From NCBI GenBank assembly GCA_022711575.1, contig JAKLES010000004.1, positions 1-37,889 on the forward strand: a stretch of 37,889 nt of DNA, in the 5' to 3' direction. Shown here one piece after another: positions 19,982 through 35,100 of the stretch. A program made the position numbers and the translations under genes. Numbering within the stretch: position 1 is the first letter of the stretch; each line of letters begins with the position of its first letter. The stretch is from Deltaproteobacteria bacterium. GTDB lineage: Bacteria > Desulfobacterota > Syntrophia > Syntrophales > Smithellaceae. The notes beneath the pieces are model-generated. The model was not told where the DNA came from and made no database searches. It worked only from the letters and a program-made list of their open reading frames with translations.

Positions 19982-20428
19982 TTAATTGAATGGGGTAAGC
20001 AATCGAAAAAGTTCCTCTTCTTTTTGTTTCATTTTCAAGGTATTCGCTTTAGACGTGTTTACATGGTTATAACCTAAAAGATGCAACAGTCCATGGATGA
20101 TTAAGAAAAAGATTTCCTCATCGAAACTAAGATTGCCCTTATCCGCGTCTCTGATGGCCGTATCCACAGATATTACAACATCACCCAGCATGTCGGGATT
20201 AACGTCTCCGAATTCACCTTCTTGAAGAGAGAAAGAAATAACATTGGTGGGTCGGTCTTTAAACAAATATTGTTTATTAATACATTGAATGGTTTCATCA
20301 TCGACTAACGTGATACTAATTTCCTTATTCGCGCAACCTGTCAATTTTAGAAGTTGGGTAACTTTAGAGCGGATCTTGCGTTTGTCGATTTTAATTCGCT
20401 TCTGCTGATTTTCGATTTGCACTTTCAT
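19982..20428 (-). CDS. ybeY: endoribonuclease YbeY
   Basis: YbeY is the zinc-dependent single-strand endoribonuclease needed for 16S rRNA 3' maturation and 70S quality control. The metal motif H-x3-H-x5-H is intact near the C-terminus (HGLLHLLGYNH). The family middle segment is present: LFKDRPTNVISFS, then MLGDVVIS. The start is chosen at 20428 (MKVQIENQQKRI, 148 residues), as family members begin this way. ATGs at 20479 and 20446 would add 17 or 11 residues that merely re-read the preceding gene. It overlaps the C-terminal coding end of the 7TM-HD gene by about 38 bases, so the two are translationally linked. The order phoH, 7TM-HD, ybeY is common outside enterobacteria. Confidence 0.94.
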   Translation of the reverse strand: MKVQIENQQKRIKIDKRKIRSKVTQLLKLTGCANKEISITLVDDETIQCINKQYLFKDRPTNVISFSLQEGEFGDVNPDMLGDVVISVDTAIRDADKGNLSFDEEIFFLIIHGLLHLLGYNHVNTSKANTLKMKQKEEELFRLLTPFN

Positions 20429-22703
20429 TGGACTCTTTTTTACCATTTGTCTCTTTGGAGAATGTTTGCGGATATTCAACGCGATGATGGAAAATACCCG
20501 TCAAAATTCGGGTAAATGTTTCCGCAATGGTGTTGAGGTTTTTCAGCGTTAACTCACAATCATCCAATTGACCGTCTGTGTATATACGCTCAATACGTTC
20601 CCGCACCAGTGATCGTATTCTCGCTGGTGTCGGATTCGAAAGTGTTCGGGAGGAGGCTTCAATGACATCACCCAGCATAACGAGTCCGGCCTCTTTGGTT
20701 TGCGGTTTCGGTCCGGGATAACGAAAATCACTTTCCGTTAGAGAACGAATCGATTCGTCCTTGTTCTTTTTGGCCTTTTCGTAAAAATAACTAACAAGAC
20801 TGGTACCGTGATGTTCACGGATAATATTGATGATCGGCTGACCGAGTTTTACCTTCAAGGCCAGGTCGTGACCTTCCTTGACATGGGAAATAATAATCAG
20901 GGAGCTCATTTTTGGTGAGAGCTTGTCGTGCCGATTGTCGTTGCTGGGTTGATTTTCAATATAGTAATGGGGTTTCGCCAATTTACCGATATCATGGTAA
21001 TAGGCGCTGACCTTTGCTAGTAATGAATTCGCGCCGATGGCTTCCGCTGCAGCTTCAACCAAAGAGGCAACAATGATACTGTGGTGATAAGTGCCCGGCG
21101 CTTCGATAATCATTCTCTGAAAAAGCGGTTGATTGAGATTGGCCAGTTCCAGCAACTTGATGTAGGTAATAAAACCGAATAGACTTTCAAAAATGGGTGT
21201 GATGCCCGCAACGAGAATTCCGGTGATAATGCCGCCGAGAAAGCCCATAACAATTCGTATTATTAAGTCATGAAGCAAATGGCCGGTTAAAAGATTCAAA
21301 CAAATAATTGCGGCCACATTGATAACCCCAAGAAAAACGCCGACCTTTAAAAAAGTAGAACGTTGACGGCTGTTGGCAATGTGATAGGAAGCAGCAACAG
21401 ATCCCAGAAACGAAAAAAGCGGGAAAATAATATTTTCATCGAAAAGAAGACTGATGAGAAAAGATGTCAGAACACTGATGATCAAAGCCACGTTGCGATT
21501 AACCAATACGGCGATAATCATGGCGCCACAGGCAAAGGGTATTGCAAAATAGCAGGCGTCAATCGGGATAGAAGTGAAAGCTCTGTTGATGGAAATAGAG
21601 ATGAAGATTCCCGCTTTGACGAAAAATACCTGTAGAACAGCAACTATAGCAAAAACGAGAAAGTCCACATTGGAACGGGATGTTGTTTTTAGCCAGTTTC
21701 TAGTGCGCCAGAAGTACAGGAGCAATGTCAGAAAGAGAACAGTGCAAAATATTCCCAAAAAGACCATCAGACGGGATATTTTATTGTCCGCAGAGGTTTT
21801 ATAAAATGCATCAAGTTTGGCCAGTTCCAGATAACCGATTTTTTCTCCTTCTCGAACAATCATCTCATTTTTTTGAACTTGGAAATAAACAGGTTTGACC
21901 TCCTCAATAATGGATAATATTCTCTTGTCTGTCTCCTTTTTATTGAAGATGAGATTGGGTTCAATAAGCTTTTTTAGAAGAGAAAAAGAAAATCGCCGGG
22001 CATCAATCTGATCGCCTTTGAAAATGGCGTTCACTTTTTTAGATAATATCGGGTCAATATCGTTAATATTCAGAACAAACGATACATCTTTCAGATTTTC
22101 CTCTGCCCTCGTAATCATATTAACGATAGTAATGCCTTTTTCCCGTTCGTTTTTTTGCAAAACGCTTGAAGTAACTAAAGTATTGTCGTAGAAAGAAGAA
22201 ATGACTCTGGACAGTCTTTGTAAAAGATCATCCGAATAATTGTTTGCTTTAAGAAAAGAAAATTCCTGTTGTGTCAGAGAGACACCTAATGATTTTTCCA
22301 AAATGGCTTTATGCGGTTGCGATGCTTGCTGCCCCGAAACTAGCGTAAAGGAATTTCTGATTTTTTTTATGAGAGTAATGGCCATTTCGGCATCATATTC
22401 ATAGATCGGTCTCGTATTAACCGAGGCTTCATTTCTTTTTTGTTGTGTGGAATGGACATCTTCGACCAGAAAATCACGATCCGCCTTGATGTTTTCCTGA
22501 GCAATCATACCATGGCGGTATTCCGGATTTGAATCATAGAGTTTAGGCGCTAGAATCAGTGTTAGTCCGACGCTTAAAAAAATGGCGATCGCCCAGCGCT
22601 GAAAAATGATATTATTTAAGAAATCGAAAGAAATTTTGCTCTTTTCTTTCAATTTCCGAAAAGTTGAAAATATTTTTCCCGATGTGGAATCTAGATAATT
22701 CAT
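20391..22703 (-). CDS. 7TM-HD family phosphohydrolase (PgpH-like)
   Basis: This 770-residue membrane protein has an N-terminal helix (about 36-52), a large extracytoplasmic 7TMR-HDED domain (about 60-300, ending KNEMIVREGEKI), a membrane region of about seven helices (about 311-500), and a cytoplasmic HD domain. The HD motif is at 570-571 (YYHDIGKLAKPHYY), with preceding His540/His541 (TYHHSIIVASLVEAAAEA). In Listeria the homologue PgpH hydrolyses cyclic di-AMP; that substrate is inferred here from architecture. The tail beyond the HD domain is hydrophilic and overlaps ybeY. The ATG is preceded by AAGG that overlaps the phoH stop; the gap to phoH is five bases. No cyclic di-AMP synthase is in the window. 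Confidence 0.93.
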   Translation of the reverse strand: MNYLDSTSGKIFSTFRKLKEKSKISFDFLNNIIFQRWAIAIFLSVGLTLILAPKLYDSNPEYRHGMIAQENIKADRDFLVEDVHSTQQKRNEASVNTRPIYEYDAEMAITLIKKIRNSFTLVSGQQASQPHKAILEKSLGVSLTQQEFSFLKANNYSDDLLQRLSRVISSFYDNTLVTSSVLQKNEREKGITIVNMITRAEENLKDVSFVLNINDIDPILSKKVNAIFKGDQIDARRFSFSLLKKLIEPNLIFNKKETDKRILSIIEEVKPVYFQVQKNEMIVREGEKIGYLELAKLDAFYKTSADNKISRLMVFLGIFCTVLFLTLLLYFWRTRNWLKTTSRSNVDFLVFAIVAVLQVFFVKAGIFISISINRAFTSIPIDACYFAIPFACGAMIIAVLVNRNVALIISVLTSFLISLLFDENIIFPLFSFLGSVAASYHIANSRQRSTFLKVGVFLGVINVAAIICLNLLTGHLLHDLIIRIVMGFLGGIITGILVAGITPIFESLFGFITYIKLLELANLNQPLFQRMIIEAPGTYHHSIIVASLVEAAAEAIGANSLLAKVSAYYHDIGKLAKPHYYIENQPSNDNRHDKLSPKMSSLIIISHVKEGHDLALKVKLGQPIINIIREHHGTSLVSYFYEKAKKNKDESIRSLTESDFRYPGPKPQTKEAGLVMLGDVIEASSRTLSNPTPARIRSLVRERIERIYTDGQLDDCELTLKNLNTIAETFTRILTGIFHHRVEYPQTFSKETNGKKESNESANRKSAEAN

Positions 22704-22708
22704 ATACC

Positions 22709-23704
22709 TTATTTATTTTTACTGGATTTATTGTCGATGTCCCATGAAGCGTAAGCGGAAATGACGTCGGCAACGAGGGGATGACGAACCACGTCCACCT
22801 GAGAAAAATGCACAATACGCACTGCATCCACTCTTTTCAGGATTTTTTCGGCCTCAATCAAACCTGATGCTTTTTCCGTCGGCAGATCAATTTGCGTGAT
22901 GTCGCCCGTCACAACAGCTTTTGAATTAAAACCCAGTCGCGTTAAAAACATCTTCATCTGTTCGGATGTCGTATTCTGGGCTTCATCCAAAATGATGAAT
23001 GAGTCGTTGAGCGTCCGTCCGCGCATAAACGCCAACGGTGCGACTTCAATCACTCCTTTGTGAATCATGACGTTTGCCTTTTCCATGTCCACCATGTCAT
23101 AGAGCGCGTCATATAAAGGGCGTAAATAAGGATTGACCTTTTCGGCTAGATCACCCGGCAGAAAGCCCAAACGCTCACCCGCTTCCACGGCAGGTCTGGT
23201 CAAAATAATCCGTTGTACTTTCTTTTCCAGTAATTGTGACACGGCCATTGCCATTGCCAGATAGGTTTTACCAGTGCCGGCAGGTCCTATGGCCAGAACC
23301 ATGTCGGCATTTCTCATGGAATCGATGTAACGCCGTTGAGCGATGCTTTTGGGTGCGATCATGCGCTTTTTGGAAGATATAAAAACCGTATCCAGAAAGA
23401 CATGGGCTAAATCAAAATGGATATCTTCGGTCAGAATTCGATGCGCATAGTCGATATCGGAAAAGTGAATATGCCAGCCTTTTTCCATAATCCCATAGAG
23501 TTGTTTGAACAAAAGTGAGATCTTTAGAACAGTGGCTTCATCGCCGGTGATGGAAAGTTGATTGCCCCAAGGCTTAATCGAGACTTGTTCAAGCTTTTCG
23601 AGGAGTTTTAAGTGATAGTCATGTTCGCCGCATAGATTTTTCAGCAAATTCTGATCCGCGAAGGATATTTTTTCTACCCGGATGCTTTTAGTTGCTTTTA
23701 TCAA
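22709..23704 (-). CDS. PhoH-family ATPase (YbeZ-like)
   Basis: A cytosolic P-loop NTPase of the PhoH/YbeZ group, probably acting on RNA with YbeY. The 331 residues include an N-terminal KH-like RNA-binding fold (about 10-75), Walker A GPAGTGKT at 140-147, the family motif LTRPAVEAGERLGFLPGDL (169-187), and Walker B FIILDEAQNTT (236-246). The start is TTG at 23704 with AGAGG about ten bases upstream. It heads the phoH-7TM-HD-ybeY trio; 118 bases separate it from the M20 peptidase gene. I did not find a strong promoter in that gap, only a short AACGC/GCGTT hairpin. Confidence 0.94.
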   Translation of the reverse strand: MIKATKSIRVEKISFADQNLLKNLCGEHDYHLKLLEKLEQVSIKPWGNQLSITGDEATVLKISLLFKQLYGIMEKGWHIHFSDIDYAHRILTEDIHFDLAHVFLDTVFISSKKRMIAPKSIAQRRYIDSMRNADMVLAIGPAGTGKTYLAMAMAVSQLLEKKVQRIILTRPAVEAGERLGFLPGDLAEKVNPYLRPLYDALYDMVDMEKANVMIHKGVIEVAPLAFMRGRTLNDSFIILDEAQNTTSEQMKMFLTRLGFNSKAVVTGDITQIDLPTEKASGLIEAEKILKRVDAVRIVHFSQVDVVRHPLVADVISAYASWDIDNKSSKNK

Positions 23705-23822
23705 ATGTATTCGGCCTCTAAAATATTAACCCAAACTCAACACTACTGCCGTTTGTTTCCATGAGCCATTTTCTAACGCGAAGGCGTTTCCTATCATTAT
23801 GAGACATTGAAAGCAATACAAT

Positions 23823-25064
23823 TTACGCCTGTAAAAACAGGTGGGCGAAGACCTTCGCATTGCCCAACATATTGTCAATTGGACAGTTTTCATCAGGTTG
23901 ATGCGCATGCATATTTGTTTTGGACCAGACCGCGACCGGATAGCCCTTTCTGCGAAGATAGGAGGCAACAGTTCCCGCGCCAACCCCCCCCGCATAAGCT
24001 TTCAGATGATAGATCTTCTCAATCGCTTCCCGCAATGCATAAACGACAGGAGAATCCACAGACGTAGGATGTGCGGACTGAACATATTGTTGCTGTGATT
24101 CCTCGATTTTCACTGAAAATTTCTTTTCCACTTTTTGGAAAATCTTTCTGATCTCGCCCAGGACCTCCTGGAGATCATATTGCGGCAGCACTCGGCAATC
24201 CATATAGAAGACGTCTTCGCCGGGAATGGTGTTGATGTTTCCCACGTTTGCTTCTTTTTTCGTCGGTTCAAATGTGCTGACAGGAGGGTCAAAAAGCGGA
24301 TCAACTGCATCGAAAATCTTGTGGAGTTTCCTCAATTTTGTCACCAGATAGGAAGCCGCCGAAAAAGCATTAATACCTAGTTGGGGCTTGCTACCGTGGC
24401 ATTGTTTGCCGGTTGTTTTGAAGCCTAGCCAAAGGATGCTTTTTTCCGCAATCTCGATAAGCGAGCCCTCGGGATTTCCCGAATCAGGAACCACAATTAA
24501 ATCATCCTGGCTGAAAATCTTTTCCGGCAAGTCCAGTACGTGGTACAATCCCTTACCACCGGAGGTTTCCTCGTCTGCCACAAAGAAAAGACCAATAGAG
24601 GACGCAGGGATGATGCCCTCGTCCATAAAAGCTTTGGCGGCAAAAATCGAGGCCACCATGTCCTGCTGGTTGTCTTCTGTTCCTCGGCCGTAGATATGGT
24701 TGTCTTTGACGTAGGCAGTGAAGGGATCGGCGCTCCAAAGATTGAGTTCGCCCGGTGGAACAATATCCAGATGCGTGATGATCCAAATGTTGCGGGTTTT
24801 ATTTTTCCCTTCGATAACGGTTAGAAAATTAGGTCGTAGGCCTGAAGAGACTCTTTCATCTGGCGCGTCATAATGGCGAAAAGAGCTAAAACCCATTTCG
24901 ATAAGACATTTTTTTAGCATTTGAGATTTTAACATTTCGCCGTCGCCACCATTGATCGGACCGACAGCAGGTATGGCCGTCAGTATTTTCTGCAGTTCAA
25001 TTATATCATCTCGATAGGTGTCAATTCTTTGGCAGATTTTTTCAAAGATATTCTCGTCTATCAT
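23823..25064 (-). CDS. M20-family metallopeptidase (ArgE/DapE type)
   Basis: A probable two-zinc amidohydrolase of the DapE/ArgE/CPG2 group, 413 residues. Metal ligands in order are His98 and Asp100 (ITHLDIVPPGE), bridging Asp131 (GRGTEDNQQ), Glu165/Glu166 (DEETSGG; general base and ligand), then a later Asp and a C-terminal His (the MHAHQPDENC segment). A dimerisation domain interrupts the catalytic domain (about 215-330). The substrate cannot be told from sequence: DapE (succinyl-diaminopimelate), ArgE, or a dipeptidase are all possible, and the clear DapE signature is not obvious to me. The start is ATG 25064 with AAGG eight bases upstream. It follows the second M16 gene by 14 bases. Confidence 0.88.
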   Translation of the reverse strand: MIDENIFEKICQRIDTYRDDIIELQKILTAIPAVGPINGGDGEMLKSQMLKKCLIEMGFSSFRHYDAPDERVSSGLRPNFLTVIEGKNKTRNIWIITHLDIVPPGELNLWSADPFTAYVKDNHIYGRGTEDNQQDMVASIFAAKAFMDEGIIPASSIGLFFVADEETSGGKGLYHVLDLPEKIFSQDDLIVVPDSGNPEGSLIEIAEKSILWLGFKTTGKQCHGSKPQLGINAFSAASYLVTKLRKLHKIFDAVDPLFDPPVSTFEPTKKEANVGNINTIPGEDVFYMDCRVLPQYDLQEVLGEIRKIFQKVEKKFSVKIEESQQQYVQSAHPTSVDSPVVYALREAIEKIYHLKAYAGGVGAGTVASYLRRKGYPVAVWSKTNMHAHQPDENCPIDNMLGNAKVFAHLFLQA

Positions 25065-25078
25065 GAATTAGCCTTAAC

Positions 25079-26506
25079 TTATTGTTGTGGTAAGATAAAA
25101 ATAGGTTGTTCCCATTGTTCAGGTAATTTGCCGAATTGATCCGTATCGCCTACAATAATCGTCAGCCTTCTTTTTGCGTTAAGGTATTTACCGGCGACAC
25201 GTTTTAAATCCTTGCACGCCACAGCTTCAATTCTTTTTCGATAGTTGATCAGATAATCGTCTGGTAATTTCTCAAACGCAATAGTCATTTGTTGAGAAAC
25301 AATCTGTTCGGGCTGCTCAAAAGAGAAAATAAAACCATTGAGTAAAGATTTTTTTGCCCAGTCCAGTTCGTCTTGAGAGACGGAGCCAGCCGCGACATCA
25401 TCCAGGATGGAATTCATTAAGTGAAGTGCCTGAAAGGTCGATGCTGTTTTGGTAAAAGCATATGTTCCGAAAACACCGTAATTGCTGCGAGCACGGTAAA
25501 AGCTGCCGGCGCTGTAAGCCAACCCTTCATTATTGCGGACAGCGCTAAATATTTTTGAAGGAAAGCCACCGCTGCCAATGATAAAATCAAGAATGGCAAA
25601 AGCGTAAAAATCCGGGTCATTTTTGCTGATTGTGAATTCCCCGCTGACCACGGTTGATTGTGGGATATCTTTCCGTATAAAGAAAAGACCATGGCCTGGT
25701 TCTTTCGGCGGCGGCGCAATCTTGATGGCCTGCCGGGAATCTTTCCAGTGGCCGAAGTATTGCCGGATTTTGTTGATAGCTTCTTCCTTGGAAATATCGC
25801 CGGAGATGGCAAAGATGACATTGGACGGAAAGAAATATTCACGGTGAAAACTGGTTAAATCATCGCGGGTGATTTGCTTAAGAGAGGTTGGCGTCGCATA
25901 ACGCCCCCGTGGATCGGAAGGATAAAGCAGGCGGTTGAATTCACGAAATGCAAATTTTTGCGGATTATCTGCCACCCGACGCAGTTCTTCTTTTTTCAGA
26001 GATAGCGCCGTTTGCAATTTTTCTTCTTCAAATGCCGGTTCGATGAGTATCTGTGCAAGTAAATTCAGACAAACATCCAGATCGCTCTTCAAAAAAGAAA
26101 AATAAACAGAGGCGGAGTCAAGCGACATGGAAATAGATGGCGAAACGGCCAGGAAATCCAAACGCTGCTCAATATCTCCGCTGCTCAATTGTTTAGTGCC
26201 GCCTGTTCGCATCGTATAAGCGGTCAGTTCTGCCAAACCTTCTTTACCGTGGGGATCATGCAGCGCTCCGGTGCGCACCAGCGCGGACACCGAAACCAGA
26301 GGCAATTCGTCGTTCCGAAGGTAAAACAAAACCATGCCGTTATCCAGCAAAACGCGCTCGGCTTCTGGTACACGAAAATCCAGCCCGGGATATTTTAATT
26401 TGTCCGGTGAGATGAATTTTTGAGCCGCTGACGCACCGGACACAATCATTCCGCAAAGCAATACTAGCAATCCGGTTACGCAATAAACATTAAATTTATT
26501 TTTCAT
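25079..26506 (-). CDS. M16-family peptidase-like subunit lacking the zinc motif
   Basis: A secreted insulinase-type (M16) protein: signal peptide (about 1-28 from ATG 26506), then two M16 half-domains. Where active M16 enzymes have H-x-x-E-H, this chain reads GKEGLAELTAYTMRTGG, so both histidines are missing. The C-terminal half is conserved (AILDFIIGSGGFPSKIFSAVRNNEGLAYSAGS, split here by its R/Y loop). This is the expected pattern of the non-catalytic partner in two-gene M16 systems, such as the beta/alpha pairs of mitochondrial processing peptidase or bacterial M16 heterodimers. An ATG at 26524 would add six residues. The chosen start overlaps the active M16 gene by 11 bases. Confidence 0.88.
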   Translation of the reverse strand: MKNKFNVYCVTGLLVLLCGMIVSGASAAQKFISPDKLKYPGLDFRVPEAERVLLDNGMVLFYLRNDELPLVSVSALVRTGALHDPHGKEGLAELTAYTMRTGGTKQLSSGDIEQRLDFLAVSPSISMSLDSASVYFSFLKSDLDVCLNLLAQILIEPAFEEEKLQTALSLKKEELRRVADNPQKFAFREFNRLLYPSDPRGRYATPTSLKQITRDDLTSFHREYFFPSNVIFAISGDISKEEAINKIRQYFGHWKDSRQAIKIAPPPKEPGHGLFFIRKDIPQSTVVSGEFTISKNDPDFYAFAILDFIIGSGGFPSKIFSAVRNNEGLAYSAGSFYRARSNYGVFGTYAFTKTASTFQALHLMNSILDDVAAGSVSQDELDWAKKSLLNGFIFSFEQPEQIVSQQMTIAFEKLPDDYLINYRKRIEAVACKDLKRVAGKYLNAKRRLTIIVGDTDQFGKLPEQWEQPIFILPQQ

Positions 26507-28022
26507 TTTTACCCGTGCTTGCATCTGCGTTTACTTTTTTGTTTAAGACGGCGATTGTCCGGTTTTCAACAGATAGGTACTTTTCGGCCGCCGTCTGAAT
26601 ATCCATTGCCGTCACTTTGTCAATGTGAGAAATGTAGTTGGAAAAATATCGGTAATCACCCAGCAGCAATTCGTAATAAGAAAGAATGGAAGCCAGTTCA
26701 GAATTGGAATCAAGGCTTTTAACGTAATCCATCTTCAATTGATTTTTGGCTTTGGCCAGCTCCAAGTCCGTCACGGGAAGAGTCTTTAATATTTCCAGTT
26801 CCCGAAGAATGGCCGTTTGGAGTTCATCGTTTGTATGTGGATGGCGAGGACGGGCCAGGATCGCAAACAGGTTCGCATACCTTGTAGCCGGCATACCGTT
26901 ATGAGCACTGATGCTTTCCGCGATTTGCATTTGCAACACCAGCCTGGAATACAAACGGCTGGTTCTACCCTTGCTTAAAATCGTTTCCAGCACATCAAGA
27001 ACATAGTCTTCAACGGCAGGTGCGGTCGGCTTGTGATAACCGATGATCATCGACGGATTGGCATCAAACAAAACCTCCACTTTGCGCTCCCCGGTTTGCG
27101 GCGGTTCGGCTGGAATGACGGCAGGTTGCAAATTGCCTTTGGGAATCCGTCCGAAATATTGATTAATCAGCTTTAGCGTGATCGAGGGATTAATGTCTCC
27201 AACGACGGCAATGGTCATATTTTCTGGCGATAGATATTTTTGGTGCATACGCCGAATGGCCGCTTGGCTAATATAGGTTAAATCCTGAGGGTAGCCTATA
27301 ATAGAGACGCCATAAGGATGTACTTTATAGGCCGTGCTCATGAAGGATTCATAAAGTTTACCGTCAGGATTGGTTTCTATGCTCTGCCTTCTTTCTTCCA
27401 GGATGACATCGCGTTCCGTATAGAACTCACGAAAGACGGGGTTAATTAGGCGGTCAGATTCAATACGAGCCCAGAGCTCAATCTTATTGGCGGGTAGATT
27501 CACGTAGTACGTTGTTACATCCTGACCGGTAGATGCGTTCATTTCCAGGCCGCCATTTTCCGTATAGAGCCGGTCAATCTCGTTTGGGATATAATACTTG
27601 CGGTGCTTCTCCTGTAATTTTTTTAAACGCGAGGCAAGATTTTTGATGCGTCTCTGATCGGCTTTATTTTGCTGCATCCGCTCATTATCCAGCGCCTGTC
27701 CGATCTGCTCGATTTGCGTGAGCAGTTTTTTTTCCGCTGCGTAATTTTTCGTACCGATAGACGTTGTGCCTTTAAACATCATGTGTTCCAGAACGTGCGC
27801 GGCGCCGCTTTGTCCCTTAATTTCATCAACTGCTCCGACGCGGTAGCGGATATAGAGCGAAACGGTCGGGCTGAATTTGCGCTCGAGCATCAAAACGGTT
27901 AGACCATTATCCAGCTTGGCTTTAACGACCTTCTTTTCCAGGTCAATCGCCCATAAAGGGGTTGACCAGTAAACAATGATCAACCCGATCAGCAGCAAAC
28001 AAAACCTATTTCGTGTCAACAT
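26496..28022 (-). CDS. M16-family zinc metallopeptidase, catalytic subunit
   Basis: A secreted insulinase-type protease of 508 residues from ATG 28022, starting with a signal peptide (LLLIGLIIVYWSTPLWA). The inverted zinc motif H-x-x-E-H is intact (AHVLEHMMFKGT, His76/Glu79/His80), and the third ligand lies in the TERDVILEERR segment. Between them is a charged, probably coiled-coil insertion of about 50 residues (AEKKLLTQIEQIGQ, then RIKNLASRLKKLQEK). A longer frame from 28115 exists, but its extra 31 residues only re-read the upstream small gene. Signal peptide and partner gene suggest a periplasmic heterodimeric peptide-degrading complex. Substrates are unknown. Confidence 0.93.
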   Translation of the reverse strand: MLTRNRFCLLLIGLIIVYWSTPLWAIDLEKKVVKAKLDNGLTVLMLERKFSPTVSLYIRYRVGAVDEIKGQSGAAHVLEHMMFKGTTSIGTKNYAAEKKLLTQIEQIGQALDNERMQQNKADQRRIKNLASRLKKLQEKHRKYYIPNEIDRLYTENGGLEMNASTGQDVTTYYVNLPANKIELWARIESDRLINPVFREFYTERDVILEERRQSIETNPDGKLYESFMSTAYKVHPYGVSIIGYPQDLTYISQAAIRRMHQKYLSPENMTIAVVGDINPSITLKLINQYFGRIPKGNLQPAVIPAEPPQTGERKVEVLFDANPSMIIGYHKPTAPAVEDYVLDVLETILSKGRTSRLYSRLVLQMQIAESISAHNGMPATRYANLFAILARPRHPHTNDELQTAILRELEILKTLPVTDLELAKAKNQLKMDYVKSLDSNSELASILSYYELLLGDYRYFSNYISHIDKVTAMDIQTAAEKYLSVENRTIAVLNKKVNADASTGKNEK

Positions 28023-28245
28023 GATCCATCTCATCGCTAGGTTTATTCGGGAAAAAGCGGAAAAATACGTAAAGGATGCCAACAACACAAAACAAAATAA
28101 TGAAAGAGGCCGCAAACAAAGTCATGACAAATTCCAGAGGGTTGGCCAATTTAAATGAACCCACCAGGATATCAATGCCGAACACTAAAAAAAACAGCGA
28201 TAACAAAAGAACAATGATATTCTTAATCCGCATCAGAATCGTCAT
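28006..28245 (-). CDS. small two-helix membrane protein, possibly LapA-like (DUF1049)
   Basis: A 79-residue protein with two membrane segments (about 8-29 and 38-62) and a short charged tail (FFPNKPSDEMDHVDTK). The layout and the segment between the helices recall DUF1049/LapA lipopolysaccharide-assembly proteins, but I cannot show a diagnostic motif. Its ATG overlaps the radical SAM stop as ATGA (28242-28245), and its own end overlaps the M16 start by 17 bases, so it is clearly part of one translationally coupled unit. An alternative start is the ATG four codons in. It is not an obvious RiPP precursor: it has two hydrophobic helices and no leader/core pattern. Confidence 0.75.
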   Translation of the reverse strand: MTILMRIKNIIVLLLSLFFLVFGIDILVGSFKLANPLEFVMTLFAASFIILFCVVGILYVFFRFFPNKPSDEMDHVDTK

Positions 28246-29630
28246 GTCATAACCTTTTTATTCTTTGGCAACGTTTTGAGCATCGCTTTGATCTTGCTGT
28301 AAACCTCATAACTGAAATCATCATTGCGACAGCTCAAAAGTGAGTTATTATGATATAGAGGTTCATGCTGAATGTCAAATGGTGAAGCCGTAAGAGCTTC
28401 GGTCCACATTCCTGTGCCGGGAATCGGCGAATATTCGGCAAGCACGGGCTTGGCGCCGCACTTTAAAACAAAATCAATGCTCTGCATGACATCTGCGGTT
28501 TTCTGCCCTGGGATTCCACACAGAAGATACACGCCAATATCGTCTGTTTTGTATCCAGCTTTTTTTAGATGAATGACCGCCTGACGCAATTCTTCATTTT
28601 TAACTTTCCCGCCTGTCTCTTTCTGAAGCTGAAAATCAGCAGTTTCAAAACCAAATCGAATGGTCTTAAAACCGGAGTCGTAAAGAACCTCACTTAATTG
28701 AGAGTCGATTTCTCTTAAATGTAAGCCATTGGGACAGTGAAAACGGCAGACTAACTTCCGTCTTTTAACTTCCTGAAGGAGAGGAATGATCATTTTTTTA
28801 GAAGAGACCAAAAGAGCATCATCATAAAAACTGAAATCGATTACACCGAAATTCTTTCGCCAGTGTTCGATTTCATCCACCACTTTGATTGGATCGCGTC
28901 TGACAAAGTTCTTTTGCAGGATATGCGATGAACAGTAACTACAACGGTACGGACAGCCGAGCGATGTGATAAGCGGAACTTGATCAATTTTGTGAAGTAA
29001 ATCAAATGCCGGGTAGGGCAGGGCGTCCAGATTTTCTCCATCAGGTTCGAAAATAATGTCTTCATCGAAAAGATTTTGAAATATTTCCAGAATTTTCTTT
29101 TCACCCCGGCCGCAAATCACATAATCAGCGCCGGAATTAGTCACGGCGTGATCGTAGCATAGAGAGGCATATTTACCACCCAGCACAACGGGAACTCCCG
29201 GCATCATCTCTTTGATAATTTTAATGGCTTCAAAAACGCCCGGATACCAATACGTCATCATTGAGGAAATCAAAACTATATCCGTCTCTGGATAACGACC
29301 CAGCTCCACACGGAATACCTCCGTATCAATTCCATAGCGGTAATAACTGCGTGGCAGCACTTTGAGGCAGTCCGGTTTGTCGATGACCTGACGGAAAAAC
29401 CGGCCATGGCCATAAATATGGCGCTTAGGCACTTGGCCGCTCTTTTGCTGCATGATCGAAGAATAGGGATCAAGGCAATCAATATAGGAAATTCGATGAT
29501 TGTTGGCACGTAAGACACTGCCAATATATAAGAGTCCCAATGGCTTTAGCCAGAAATCGTAAGCCGCAAAATCATAAATCCAGGGATTGATTAACAGAAT
29601 ATTCTTACGCATCGATGAGGCTTTTACCAT
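28242..29630 (-). CDS. radical SAM protein with B12-binding-like N-terminal domain
   Basis: A 462-residue protein. The N-terminal part (about 8-180) looks like a Rossmann cobalamin-binding domain: ILLINPW, then LGLLYIGSVLRANNHRISYID, VVLGGKYAS and GADYVICGRGE, without the DxHxxG base-off motif, as is usual in this class. The radical SAM core carries the cluster motif C-x3-C-x2-C (Cys226, 230, 233; GCPYRCSYC), followed by FSFYDDALL and FGFETAD. No SPASM-type cysteine cluster is seen at the C-terminus. Relatives methylate or rearrange lipids, tetrapyrroles or peptides; the substrate here is unknown. The ATG at 29630 (or 29612) lacks a clear ribosome site. It heads the unit that continues into the small membrane and M16 genes, and diverges from dtd. 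Confidence 0.88.
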   Translation of the reverse strand: MVKASSMRKNILLINPWIYDFAAYDFWLKPLGLLYIGSVLRANNHRISYIDCLDPYSSIMQQKSGQVPKRHIYGHGRFFRQVIDKPDCLKVLPRSYYRYGIDTEVFRVELGRYPETDIVLISSMMTYWYPGVFEAIKIIKEMMPGVPVVLGGKYASLCYDHAVTNSGADYVICGRGEKKILEIFQNLFDEDIIFEPDGENLDALPYPAFDLLHKIDQVPLITSLGCPYRCSYCSSHILQKNFVRRDPIKVVDEIEHWRKNFGVIDFSFYDDALLVSSKKMIIPLLQEVKRRKLVCRFHCPNGLHLREIDSQLSEVLYDSGFKTIRFGFETADFQLQKETGGKVKNEELRQAVIHLKKAGYKTDDIGVYLLCGIPGQKTADVMQSIDFVLKCGAKPVLAEYSPIPGTGMWTEALTASPFDIQHEPLYHNNSLLSCRNDDFSYEVYSKIKAMLKTLPKNKKVMT

Positions 29631-29718
29631 ACAAGTTGTCTAATTACCAAATGTATCACCATGCATTCCTATAAGCATTTCAATGATATTTAAGTTACAC
29701 ATTTATTCCAGAAAGAAC

Positions 29719-29747
29719 TTGAAGACTCAAGCAATTGTTGCTAGCAT
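29719..29747 (+). promoter_or_regulatory. candidate promoter of dtd and downstream genes
   Basis: TTGAAG (29719-29724), a 17-base spacer and TAGCAT (29742-29747) each match 4/6, in the divergent gap between the radical SAM gene and dtd. No equally good promoter is visible for the opposite direction. Confidence 0.4.
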
Positions 29748-29773
29748 ACCCGAACTTTTGGATAGGATTCTTT

Positions 29774-30223
29774 ATGCGTGCAGTTATTCAGAGAGTTGAC
29801 CGGGCTTGCGTCAGAATAAAATCTCAGTTATTTTCTTCAATAGATCAAGGGGTTTTGGTATTGTTGGGAGTGGAAAAAGACGATGATGAGAAAGACGCGG
29901 ATTATGTTCTGGAAAAAACGATCAACTTACGTGTTTTTGAAGATGAACAGGGCAAAATGAATCTTTCGCTCCTCGATATTGGAGGTCAGATGTTGGTGGT
30001 GTCTCAGTTTACGCTGCTGAGTGACTGTATTAAGGGACGCAGGCCATCATTTGGCCGTGCAGAAGAATTGGTCAAAGCCAATCACCTATATGAATATTTT
30101 GTACAGCAAGCCGCACCCAAAGTGAAAAAACTGGCCACCGGCAAGTTTCAGGAAATGATGCAAATTGAATTGACGAATAACGGTCCCGTAACGATATTAC
30201 TGGACAGCAGGAAAGCTTTTTAA
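29774..30223 (+). CDS. dtd: D-aminoacyl-tRNA deacylase
   Basis: DTD removes D-amino acids (and glycine) mischarged on tRNA, proofreading chirality. From ATG 29774 the 149-residue length is standard. MRAVIQRVDRACV opens the protein, SQFT is at 77-80, and the cross-subunit Gly-cis-Pro motif NNGPVT is at 135-140. The 39 bases from an upstream ATG (29735) would add 13 unconserved residues, so the later start is preferred; TAGGA lies about seven bases before it. A DUF1285 gene follows after seven bases. Confidence 0.96.
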   Translation: MRAVIQRVDRACVRIKSQLFSSIDQGVLVLLGVEKDDDEKDADYVLEKTINLRVFEDEQGKMNLSLLDIGGQMLVVSQFTLLSDCIKGRRPSFGRAEELVKANHLYEYFVQQAAPKVKKLATGKFQEMMQIELTNNGPVTILLDSRKAF

Positions 30224-30230
30224 GTGAAAT

Positions 30231-30686
30231 ATGGAATCAAGTGACATCAAAATAGACAAAGAAGGTATCTGGTATTATCGCGGTGCACACATGTTCCGCA
30301 AAGACATTTTGTGCATTTTATTTGAGAATTTAAAAGTGAATGACTGCGGTCAATACTTCATAGAACTAAACGATGAAATTTGCTATTTGGACGTTGAAGA
30401 TACTGCATTTGTCATTACAGCTGTTTACAAGACGAAAGCCCCTTCCAACGGTCATGAGCTGATTGAGGTTCTTGCAAGCGATGATTGCAGGGAAAAATTG
30501 GATTTGAGCACGTTGGCCGTGGGCCCAAAGAATATAATGTATTGCCGAATTAAAGATGGAAAATTTCCCGCCCGCTTTACGCGAAAAAGCTACTATCAAT
30601 TAGCAGAATTCATCGAGCAGGACGATGAAAACGATGATTTTTATATCGTTTTGAATGAACAAAAATACATGATTGAAAATTCTTAG
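30231..30686 (+). CDS. DUF1285 family protein
   Basis: A 151-residue soluble protein of unknown function. It opens with KIDKEGIWYYRGAHMFRKDI, which matches my memory of the DUF1285 beginning, and continues with YFIELNDEICYLDVEDTAFVI. No signal peptide, membrane helix or catalytic motif is evident; the C-terminus is acidic (EQDDENDDF). It sits between dtd and guaB in the same direction with gaps of 7 and about 25 bases, so it is probably in their operon. The link to DTD or IMP dehydrogenase may be only positional. Confidence 0.78.
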   Translation: MESSDIKIDKEGIWYYRGAHMFRKDILCILFENLKVNDCGQYFIELNDEICYLDVEDTAFVITAVYKTKAPSNGHELIEVLASDDCREKLDLSTLAVGPKNIMYCRIKDGKFPARFTRKSYYQLAEFIEQDDENDDFYIVLNEQKYMIENS

Positions 30687-30690
30687 TTAA

Positions 30691-32172
<1,482 letters not shown>

Positions 32173-35100
32173 TTGAAAATGAAGCACTCGAATTTCGTCC
32201 ATCTCCATGTTCATACGCAATACAGTCTTCTCGACGGTATGATCCGCCTCGATGACCTCTTCAAAAAGGCCAAAGAATTCGCAATGCCGGCTATGGCCAT
32301 CACCGATCATGGCAATATGTTTGGCGCGATTGATTTTTATAAACAGGCTTATGCCAACGGCATCAAGCCGATCATCGGATGTGAACTCTACGTGGCGCCC
32401 AGAAGCCGTTTCGATAAGACAACATCATCCATCGGTGAAGCCACACGTCATTTAGTCGTACTTGTCAGAAATTTACAGGGTTATAAAAACCTGATGAAAT
32501 TGACTTCTGCCGCCCATATCGAGGGTTTTTATTACCGCCCACGTGTAGATAAAGAATTGCTTAAGCAATGTTCCGAAGGCCTCATCGCATCGAGCGCCTG
32601 TCTGCACGGCGAAATCGCTTCCCATATTGTTCGCGGCAATATGGACGAAGCTAGAAAATCCGCCCGCGAATTTCTGGAAATTTTTGGCGAGAACAACTTT
32701 TATCTGGAAATCATGGAAAACGGCATTCCCGAACAGGCGATTGCCAACCAGGGTTTAATTGAACTGAGCAAAGAACTTTCCATTCCACTCATTGCCACCA
32801 ATGACTGTCATTATCTCGATGCCGGCCATGCCGAAGCGCATAATGTTCTTTTGTGTATCCAGACAGGCAAAACCATTGAAGATAAAGACCGGATGTCGAT
32901 GACATCGGATCAATTTTATGTAAAATCCCCGGAGGAAATGCAAGCGCTTTTTGCTGCGACGCCGGAAGCGATCTCGAACACAGTGAGCATTGCCGAGCGA
33001 TGCAATCTGACATTTGAATTCGGCAAATTCTATCTACCGAAATTTGAAGTAAAAAACCCGGAGGAATCTCTTGAAGATTATCTGGATCGTAAAGCAATGG
33101 AAGGTTTGGGAAAGCTTCTGCCGACCATTATGAAATACCAAAAAGAGAACGAGGTTGCTGTTCGGGAAAAATATACCAAGCGCCTTCGCACTGAGCTCGA
33201 AATCATTAAAAAAATGGGATTTGCCGGTTACTTTCTTATCGTTTCTGATTTTATAAAGTACGCCAAACATCATGATGTTCCTGTTGGACCCGGACGTGGT
33301 TCAGCTGCTGGATCTCTAGTGGCCTACGCCATCCGCATTACCGATATTGATCCCCTTCGTTACGGGCTATTTTTTGAAAGATTTCTAAATCCGGATCGTA
33401 TCAGCATGCCGGATATTGATATTGACTTTTGTCAGGAGCGACGTGGTGAAATCATCAAATACGTGACGGATAAATATGGCAAGGATAAAGTCACGCAAAT
33501 TTGCACCTTTGGAAAAATGATGGCCAAAGGCGTGATCCGGGATGTCGGGCGCGCCTTGAACATTACGTACAGCGAAGCGGATCGCATCGCCAAACTGGTT
33601 CCGAATGTTTTGAATATCACGCTCGCCCAGGCTTTTGAAATGGAGCCCCGGTTTGCCGAGGAGCGCAAGAAAAATCCCCAAATTGATAAATTGCTCTCCC
33701 TTTCAGTGGTTCTGGAAGGACTAAACCGCCACTCTTCCGTTCATGCCGCAGGTGTTGTGATTTCGGATGCACCGCTGGTGGAACGTGTGCCGCTATTCGC
33801 TCCCAAAGACGATATCGTCTCCCAATATTCCATGAAGGATATTGAAGCAGTAGGGTTGACCAAGTTTGATTTCCTGGGTCTAAAGACTCTGACAGTGATT
33901 AAAAATGCTCTGAATTTCATCAAGGAATCACATCACATTGATATCGACATCAATAATTTACCGCTTGATGATCAGGAAACGTATAAACTGTTAATGAAAG
34001 GCGAAACCGACGGTGTCTTCCAGTTGGAAAGTTCCGGCATGAAAGACCTTCTGGTCAATTTTAAGCCTGATCACATAGAGGATGTTATAGCTTTAATTGC
34101 CGCTTATCGTCCCGGCCCGATGAAGATGATACCCGATTTCATAGCCCGTAAGCATGGAAAACAGCAAATCACTTATGAACTGTCTCAGCTTGAACCGATC
34201 CTGAAAGAAACTTACGGCATTATACTGTACCAGGAGCAGGTCATGCAAATTGCCAATGTAATTGGCGGTTACACGATGGCCCAGGCCGATACGTTGCGCA
34301 AAGTGATGGGCAAAAAACAAGTTGCGGCAATGGAAAAAGAGAAACCAAAATTTCTCGAAGGTGCGAAAAAGCAGAAAATTAATGAGAACAAGGCAAAAAT
34401 CATCTGGGACCGGATGGAGACCTTTGCTGAATATGGCTTTAATAAATCTCATAGCGCCGCCTATGCGATGATTACCTATCAGACGGCATATCTTAAGGCT
34501 CATTATCCGGTCGCTTTTATGGCTGCGCTTTTGACTAGCGAGAAAGACAATCGCGACAAGATTATCAAGCATATGTCCAACTGTAAGGAAATGGGTATCA
34601 GCATTTTGCCTCCGGATATTAATGAATCACAAAAAGATTTCAGTATCTCCGGCGAGAATATCCGTTTTGGTTTGGCTGCTGTGAAAAATGTTGGCGAGGC
34701 AGCTATAGAATCCATTATTACTATGCGGCAGGAAGCAAATTTTACCTCCTTTATGGATTTTTTGAGTCGTGTGGATCTGCGCAAAGTCAATAGAAGGGTG
34801 ATCGAGAGCTTGATTAAATGTGGTTCTTTTGATGCGCTGGGTAACACACGCAAACAACTCATGGTATGCCTGGACCAAGCCATGGAAGAAGCACAGCGCA
34901 AGCAAAAGGAATTATTAAGCAATCAAGCAAGTATCTTTGATCATTTGGACACCGTGGAAATATCTGAAGCAAATGGCGGATCATCTTTTCAGATTCCCAA
35001 TCTCCCTGAATGGGATCGTAAAGAGCTTCTCTCCATCGAGAAAGAAACCCTTGGTTTTTATATTACGGGTCATCCTTTACATGGTTATGCCGATAAATTA

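Follow-up and report, generated by a model that had tools for sequence, protein, structure and literature searches.

Five minus-strand genes that overlap or nearly touch, coding for a B12-type radical S-adenosylmethionine (SAM) enzyme (rSAM), a small two-helix membrane protein (TM2), a catalytic and a non-catalytic M16 peptidase subunit (M16A and M16B) and an M20 peptidase (M20), raise the question of whether they form one modification-and-processing pathway or whether genes for recycling peptides merely adjoin the gene of an unrelated enzyme. They lie in the window analysed here, by which we mean the whole stretch of 37,889 nucleotides (positions 1 to 37,889 of contig JAKLES010000004.1, assembly GCA_022711575.1) from a Smithellaceae member of the order Syntrophales; the source genome of this contig (C305) is 1.5 Mb in size and approximately 70% complete. 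An earlier note, made from the sequence alone, had offered both readings, and the second has the stronger support, given the independent distribution of the genes. We consider it likely that the five genes share one transcript and comprise two functional modules, a peptide-degrading set and a free-standing rSAM. The division into two modules rests on the finding that, in most relatives, rSAM and the peptidase set are passed on independently of each other.

The gene row, read from the window sequence, has exactly the overlaps and the gap that the earlier note described. rSAM (28242..29630, 462 aa) ends at 28242 and TM2 (28006..28245, 79 aa) starts at 28245, the two sharing an ATGA (4-base overlap). 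TM2 ends at 28006, which gives a 17-base overlap with M16A (26496..28022) when the latter is started at ATG 28022; an alternative, longer mechanical open reading frame (ORF) of M16A opens at TTG 28115. M16A ends at 26496 with an 11-base overlap onto M16B (25079..26506; ATG at 26506), and a 14-base gap separates the end of M16B at 25079 from the start of M20 (23823..25064) at 25064. The same set of junctions (-4, -17, -11, +14) was found in two congeners (L033 and L055), so the five-gene arrangement is not due to chance, and the genes are probably co-transcribed. The domain content claimed for the genes was likewise confirmed, with Pfam matches for a B12-type radical SAM enzyme, for Peptidase_M16 and M16_C domains in both M16 proteins and for Peptidase_M20 and M20_dimer domains in M20, and two hydrophobic stretches in the small protein. 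A promoter scan returned 14 sites in total compared to 13.7 expected from shuffles, and an Rfam search of positions 20000-33000 gave no match at gathering score. One promoter-like site (28350-28378) carries 11 of 12 consensus bases (TTGACA-17-TATCAT) and lies within the rSAM gene, approximately 105 bases before TM2.

The earlier note had held that relatives in which rSAM stands apart from the M16 pair would speak against a link between them, and outside the Syntrophales it does stand apart, with M16A in none of 40 rSAM loci from the phylum outside the order. Among the 80 named rSAM loci listed (of 535 confirmed matches, from one contig scan; the named and phylum sets share a few records), M16A was found in eight, seven of which group with the Syntrophales, the other being L188. 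From the side of the peptidases, all 38 rows with a long-form M16A outside the order, representing 14 families, were taken. M16B was directly behind M16A in 37 of them (the exception, L234, has no M16B in the 2.2 kb behind M16A), and a search at E 1e-4, which could miss a diverged TM2, showed neither the rSAM ortholog nor M20 nor a neighbouring TM2 in any of the 38. Across 297 Desulfobacterota genomes, 25 had both rSAM and a long-form M16A, 24 had M16A only, 131 had rSAM only and 117 had neither, the presence of one being independent of the other (Fisher P = 0.88, kinship ignored). A quick tree of 151 rSAM proteins placed all 38 M16-adjacent rows in one 49-row set with one label change, which fits a single origin of the adjacency in the Syntrophales, and rSAM looks to have been inherited vertically with lineage-specific neighbours.

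Inside the Syntrophales the rSAM neighbourhood is real and mostly kept. Junctions were measured at 40 loci of the order, 16 of them from the window's family, with each count based on the loci in which both genes were found. TM2 and M16A were within 100 bp in 27 of 28 loci, M16A and M16B in 31 of 31, and M16B and M20 in 27 of 29. rSAM and TM2 were within 100 bp in 20 of 30 loci and more than 300 bp apart in eight of 30; the close spacing was present in 15 of 16 loci of the window's family compared to five of 14 from other families, in which spacings above 300 bp occurred (8/14), with various genes lying in between. Among 55 genomes of other families of the order with an rSAM ortholog, rSAM was within 600 bp of M16A in 23 and at 0.6-2.5 kb in eight, M16A was farther away on the contig in five and on another contig or strand in 13 (some of which may be contig breaks), and no M16A match was found in six. 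These spacings bear on the possibility that all five are simply genes near guaB, dnaE, phoH and pgpH that general synteny has kept, without functional meaning even for TM2, the M16 pair and M20. The wider order dnaE-guaB-DUF1285-DTD-rSAM-...-PhoH-PgpH is indeed maintained in many loci of the order, but the three junctions from TM2 to M20 remain within 100 bp at loci in which rSAM and TM2 have moved apart, and the M16A-M16B tandem is also kept in the distant loci described above (37/38), and we regard this explanation as quite improbable.

Several observations weigh against the two-module reading. In the window's family, rSAM was no more than 600 bp from M16A in 40 of the 41 genomes with both on record, which indicates strong coupling within this family, and the single exception sits at a contig end. 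A separate check found M16A in 28 of 29 loci of this family with short flanks, the 29th being the same contig-end locus, while six more genomes of the family have rSAM without an M16A row. The test of independence across the 297 genomes is uncorrected for kinship. Outside the order, a same-strand M16 pair precedes rSAM by 3.3 kb in L188, and L210 has a B12-rSAM-like gene 2.8 kb from the M16 pair. Fourteen M16 families were examined outside the order, and in one of them, f40, M16B is followed by another kind of B12-type radical SAM gene in all seven genomes with a long-form M16A (L220, L221 and L225-L229; an eighth genome, G265, has weak M16 matches only), which makes this an independent pairing of M16 genes with a B12-type enzyme. 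Neither L188 nor L210 was counted as an rSAM-M16 linkage.

The f40 enzyme starts 9-10 bases after M16B in L220, L221 and L225, with like spacing in the other four genomes. It is approximately 527 aa long with B12-binding and Radical_SAM domains both over the Pfam cut-off, has 24% identity to the window rSAM over 351 columns, and its top models (BchE, ApyD and HpnJ) are all below cut-off. Of the seven copies, five are complete, that of L221 is cut by the contig end and that of L220 is truncated. The window-type rSAM is present elsewhere in five of the seven genomes and was not found in G137 and G209. Two of the genomes, L220 and L225, have a third, HxxEH-containing M16 gene approximately 1.5 kb further along. 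Of 1281 background ORFs (at least 120 aa, taken around L073-L192 with the rSAM cluster excluded), none was B12-rSAM-like, a base rate under approximately 0.25%, and for 14 families with two flanks each at most approximately 0.07 chance pairings are therefore expected; the first-look candidate counts (2 to 43 per genome) would permit up to approximately 0.3. With these expectations the f40 pairing is suggestive of an rSAM-M16 link and not decisive.

The tight coupling in the window's family, the recurrence of a non-orthologous B12-type enzyme behind the M16 pair in f40 and the rarity of such neighbours in the background would all suit a pathway in which a B12-type rSAM modifies a cytoplasmic peptide or protein that the M16 pair trims after its export, TM2 serving as an exporter part or anchor and M20 for clean-up, f40 having recruited a second B12-type enzyme for the same task. 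M16 peptidases also lie near a radical SAM gene in the subtilosin (AlbE/AlbF and AlbA) and pyrroloquinoline quinone (PQQ; PqqE/PqqF) systems, as they do here. AlbA and PqqE systems have a SPASM-type radical SAM enzyme with the precursor peptide adjacent. The window differs in that neither a SPASM domain nor a precursor was found and in that rSAM and the M16 pair do not share their inheritance. No SPASM model was among the Pfam or NCBIfam matches of the window proteins at E 0.1, and the same lists held no peptide-recognition domain for rSAM, in agreement with the earlier note, which had seen neither here. The rSAM cysteines gave no sign of an auxiliary cluster, with no further invariant set beyond the cluster cysteines. 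The two flanking gaps of 143 and 118 bases contained no precursor candidate, their own frames being just 20, 32 and 38 aa and the other frames lying mostly in coding sequence; a remote precursor is possible. With no sign of an auxiliary cluster, no precursor candidate in the flanking gaps and no lasting linkage, a PQQ-like pathway or one for a ribosomally synthesized and post-translationally modified peptide (RiPP) was rejected as the leading explanation. The earlier suggestion of an undescribed modification-and-processing pathway is kept alive by f40, but with one f40 copy truncated and another cut by its contig, no M16A at the 40 phylum loci and rSAM and the M16 pair present independently across the phylum sample, we find it highly improbable.

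In the two-module reading, the first module is TM2-M16A-M16B-M20, and its core appears by motif to be an ordinary active/inactive M16 heterodimer. The zinc motif HxxEH is present in M16A (as HVLEH) and absent from M16B, and the best solved chains for M16A were 3amj_C and 3ami_A (active chain of 3amj at 1e-47 in phmmer), while the nearest solved chain for M16B was 3amj_B, titled 'zinc peptidase inactive subunit' (4e-46), in line with the claim of one active and one inactive subunit. Both proteins have a signal-like N-terminal stretch, judged by eye. The window and order loci were aligned with the subunits split by the presence of HxxEH. H107, E110 and H111 of M16A are conserved across 32 rows, a result that partly follows from sorting the rows by HxxEH itself, and R330 and Y337 of M16B, seven residues apart, are conserved in at least 95% of 31 rows (numbering of the 481-aa frame starting at 26524). 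HxxEH and the R/Y pair are catalytic motifs of M16 peptidases and are located in different halves, according to a recent review (PMC12731061). The tandem of a catalytic and a non-catalytic gene resembles SPH2682/SPH2681 of Sphingomonas sp. A1 (PDB 3amj) and TTHA1264/TTHA1265, and, as in the 3amj heterodimer, HxxEH sits on one subunit and the R/Y pair on its partner. In contrast to 3amj, TM2 and M20 flank the pair in the Syntrophales, though at none of the 38 loci examined beyond the order, and the alignment suggests approximately 55 extra residues in M16A after the zinc site. This charged insertion (approx. 27582..27752, minus strand, with boundaries estimated from the alignment) would separate the HxxEH helix from the distal glutamates, and the best phmmer stretch in M16A opens at residue 179, opposite residue 68 of the 3amj chain. 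The elongation factor P (EF-P) modification pair YfmF/YfmH was rejected as an identity for the pair, both M16 genes being far below cut-off (46-83 bits compared to 250-285).

M20 is a PRK13983-type metallo-hydrolase (NF010589; 534 bits compared to a cut-off of 333) with no signal sequence by eye. TM2 has two predicted membrane helices and no family match over any Pfam or NCBIfam cut-off. Two members of the order (L038 and L043) have TM2 homologs beside M20 or PhoH with no adjacent M16 pair, indicating that the tie between TM2 and the pair is not strict. Taken together, exported M16A, carrying the zinc site, and M16B, carrying the R/Y pair, would close clamshell-like around peptides, with TM2 possibly tethering or helping them; the resulting fragments would enter the cell, where M20 would finish small or N-blocked pieces in the cytoplasm.

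The second module would be rSAM itself, a free-standing B12-type enzyme that presumably works with SAM and a [4Fe-4S] cluster, and probably also with cobalamin, on a substrate not encoded at this locus. Pfam matched an N-terminal B12-binding domain (PF02310; 7e-13, 48.9 bits compared to a cut-off of 32.1) and Radical_SAM (6e-13, over cut-off), with a CPYRCSYC motif at residues 226-233. Two alignments, one of 44 and one of 63 sequences, showed the cluster cysteines C226, C230 and C233 (CX3CX2C) to be invariant, with C52 the only other cysteine that is invariant or nearly so. When compared to the named NCBIfam B12-radical SAM equivalogs (P-methyltransferase, BchE, ladderane-type, ApyD, HpnJ, BzaD, AprD4 and others), rSAM exceeded no curated cut-off, the best match reaching 87 bits compared to 575, and four further B12-type rSAM proteins that were scanned were also below every listed NCBIfam cut-off. 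An AlphaFold model built from 63 sequences had a pLDDT (predicted local distance difference test) of 94.8, and its best solved folds were AprD4 (Z 26.4), MgmA (25.2), TsrM (24.0), CysS (23.2) and OxsB (23.1), followed by MiaB and RimO at Z of approximately 21. Like TsrM, MgmA (the methyl-coenzyme M reductase (MCR) glutamine methylase), OxsB, TokK and CysS, the protein would be a compact radical SAM enzyme with an N-terminal Rossmann domain, and both of its domains align with those of AprD4 and the compact B12-type enzymes along most of the model (residues 1-8 to 457 for TsrM and OxsB), although the identity is only 13-20%. MiaB and RimO are not known to bind B12, so the fold alone is no proof of cobalamin or methyl transfer. 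AprD4, the top match, carries the title diol dehydratase and is not known to require B12.

Its distribution suggests a single-copy, uncharacterised B12-type family. A match at E of 1e-20 or below was found in 107 of 119 genomes comprising the window genome and its relatives, with an ortholog in 102 of these (three partial) and only a paralog of approximately 30% identity in the others. Across the 297 Desulfobacterota genomes, 156 had a match at E of 1e-60 or below, one in each of 155 genomes and two in G202. Most of the named records listed are from Desulfobacterota; Nitrospirota, Calditrichota, Poribacteria, Planctomycetota and Atribacterota each have one or two records assigned to them, and binning errors are possible. 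In the rSAM tree, the window groups with the Syntrophales in a set of 19 rows, one of which is a named Smithella record (L114). Among the papers listed in literature searches, none was recognisable by its title or the start of its abstract as treating the rSAM family or the five-gene operon. In several families outside the order, an AIR (5-aminoimidazole ribonucleotide) carboxylase-family gene (PF00731 in L130), which we take to be larB, lies near the 3' end of rSAM, on the opposite strand where shown (L077, L079, L085, L098, L100, L101, L130, L135, L139 and L164).

A different neighbour accompanies rSAM mainly in the Desulfobacterales. The gene ahbB, for the beta subunit of siroheme decarboxylase in the AhbA/AhbB pathway, is the immediate upstream, same-strand neighbour of rSAM in 30 of the 80 named loci listed and in five of the 40 phylum loci (L086, L093, L095, L096 and L102, with the 30 named ones among L138-L189), and the named records are mostly titled Desulfobacterales or Desulfobacteraceae. 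Some of these runs have 4- or 11-base overlaps, and mtnA is additionally upstream in 22 named loci listed and two phylum loci. Two AhbB representatives that were scanned reached 190 and 193 bits with NF040707 (cut-off 125), and the remainder were assigned by similarity. Apparent AhbB-rSAM fusions (long ORFs of approximately 505-750 aa) were rejected, the extra parts appearing to be a chance reading of the preceding DNA in a frame other than that of AhbB.

This neighbourhood raises the possibility, compatible with the two-module reading, that rSAM has a part in the metabolism of tetrapyrroles (siroheme or heme), its Syntrophales neighbours being incidental. Besides the adjacency, co-occurrence across the 297 genomes was above chance (119 with both, 37 with rSAM only, 53 with AhbB only and 88 with neither; Fisher P = 1e-11, kinship ignored), and BchE is among the sub-threshold matches of rSAM. 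However, AhbB was not found at E 1e-15 in 37 of the 156 rSAM genomes, indicating that it is not required, nor in any of the 40 order loci. In the tree, the 33 AhbB-adjacent rows all fell within a single set of 38 rows with one label change, so that the neighbourhood fits one origin, and mtnA in the same run equally fits plain recycling of 5'-deoxyadenosine. We know of no open step in the known Ahb pathway for such an enzyme. The radical SAM steps of that pathway are AhbC and AhbD, according to a published account (PMC4145669), whereas the window rSAM family also occurs without AhbB. On balance, a role in tetrapyrrole metabolism is rather unlikely. It is also unlikely that rSAM founds an undescribed, nearly single-copy class in anaerobes that is B12-dependent, carries out a step on a siroheme- or heme-type tetrapyrrole and is coupled to AhbB in the Desulfobacterales.

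The genes on both sides of the five are also kept in the order. Downstream of M20, PhoH (22709..23704, minus strand) is the next gene and occupies the same place in many order loci. Divergent from rSAM lies a gene of the D-Tyr-tRNA deacylase family (DTD; 29774..30223, plus strand; PF02580, 185 bits compared to a cut-off of 25). A divergent DTD gene beside rSAM, within 3 kb, was found in 24 of 40 order loci, eight of 40 phylum loci and 12 of the 80 named loci listed, using a query that started at 29780 and was two residues short. Between DTD and guaB, a DUF1285-like gene (30231-30686) scored below the Pfam cut-off, and its position is nevertheless kept in many order loci.

The tempting RiPP-like pathway is thus made unlikely and is replaced by two testable units. 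The first would be a known kind of M16 heterodimer whose companions TM2 and M20 are lineage-specific. The second is an uncharacterised rSAM family found in roughly every second Desulfobacterota genome of the sample (156/297), and this family and its coupling to ahbB make up the interesting residue of the locus. An rSAM gene that is so widely kept, nearly always as a single copy, and for which no substrate is known deserves a knockout, and the ahbB coupling in the Desulfobacterales says where to make it first.

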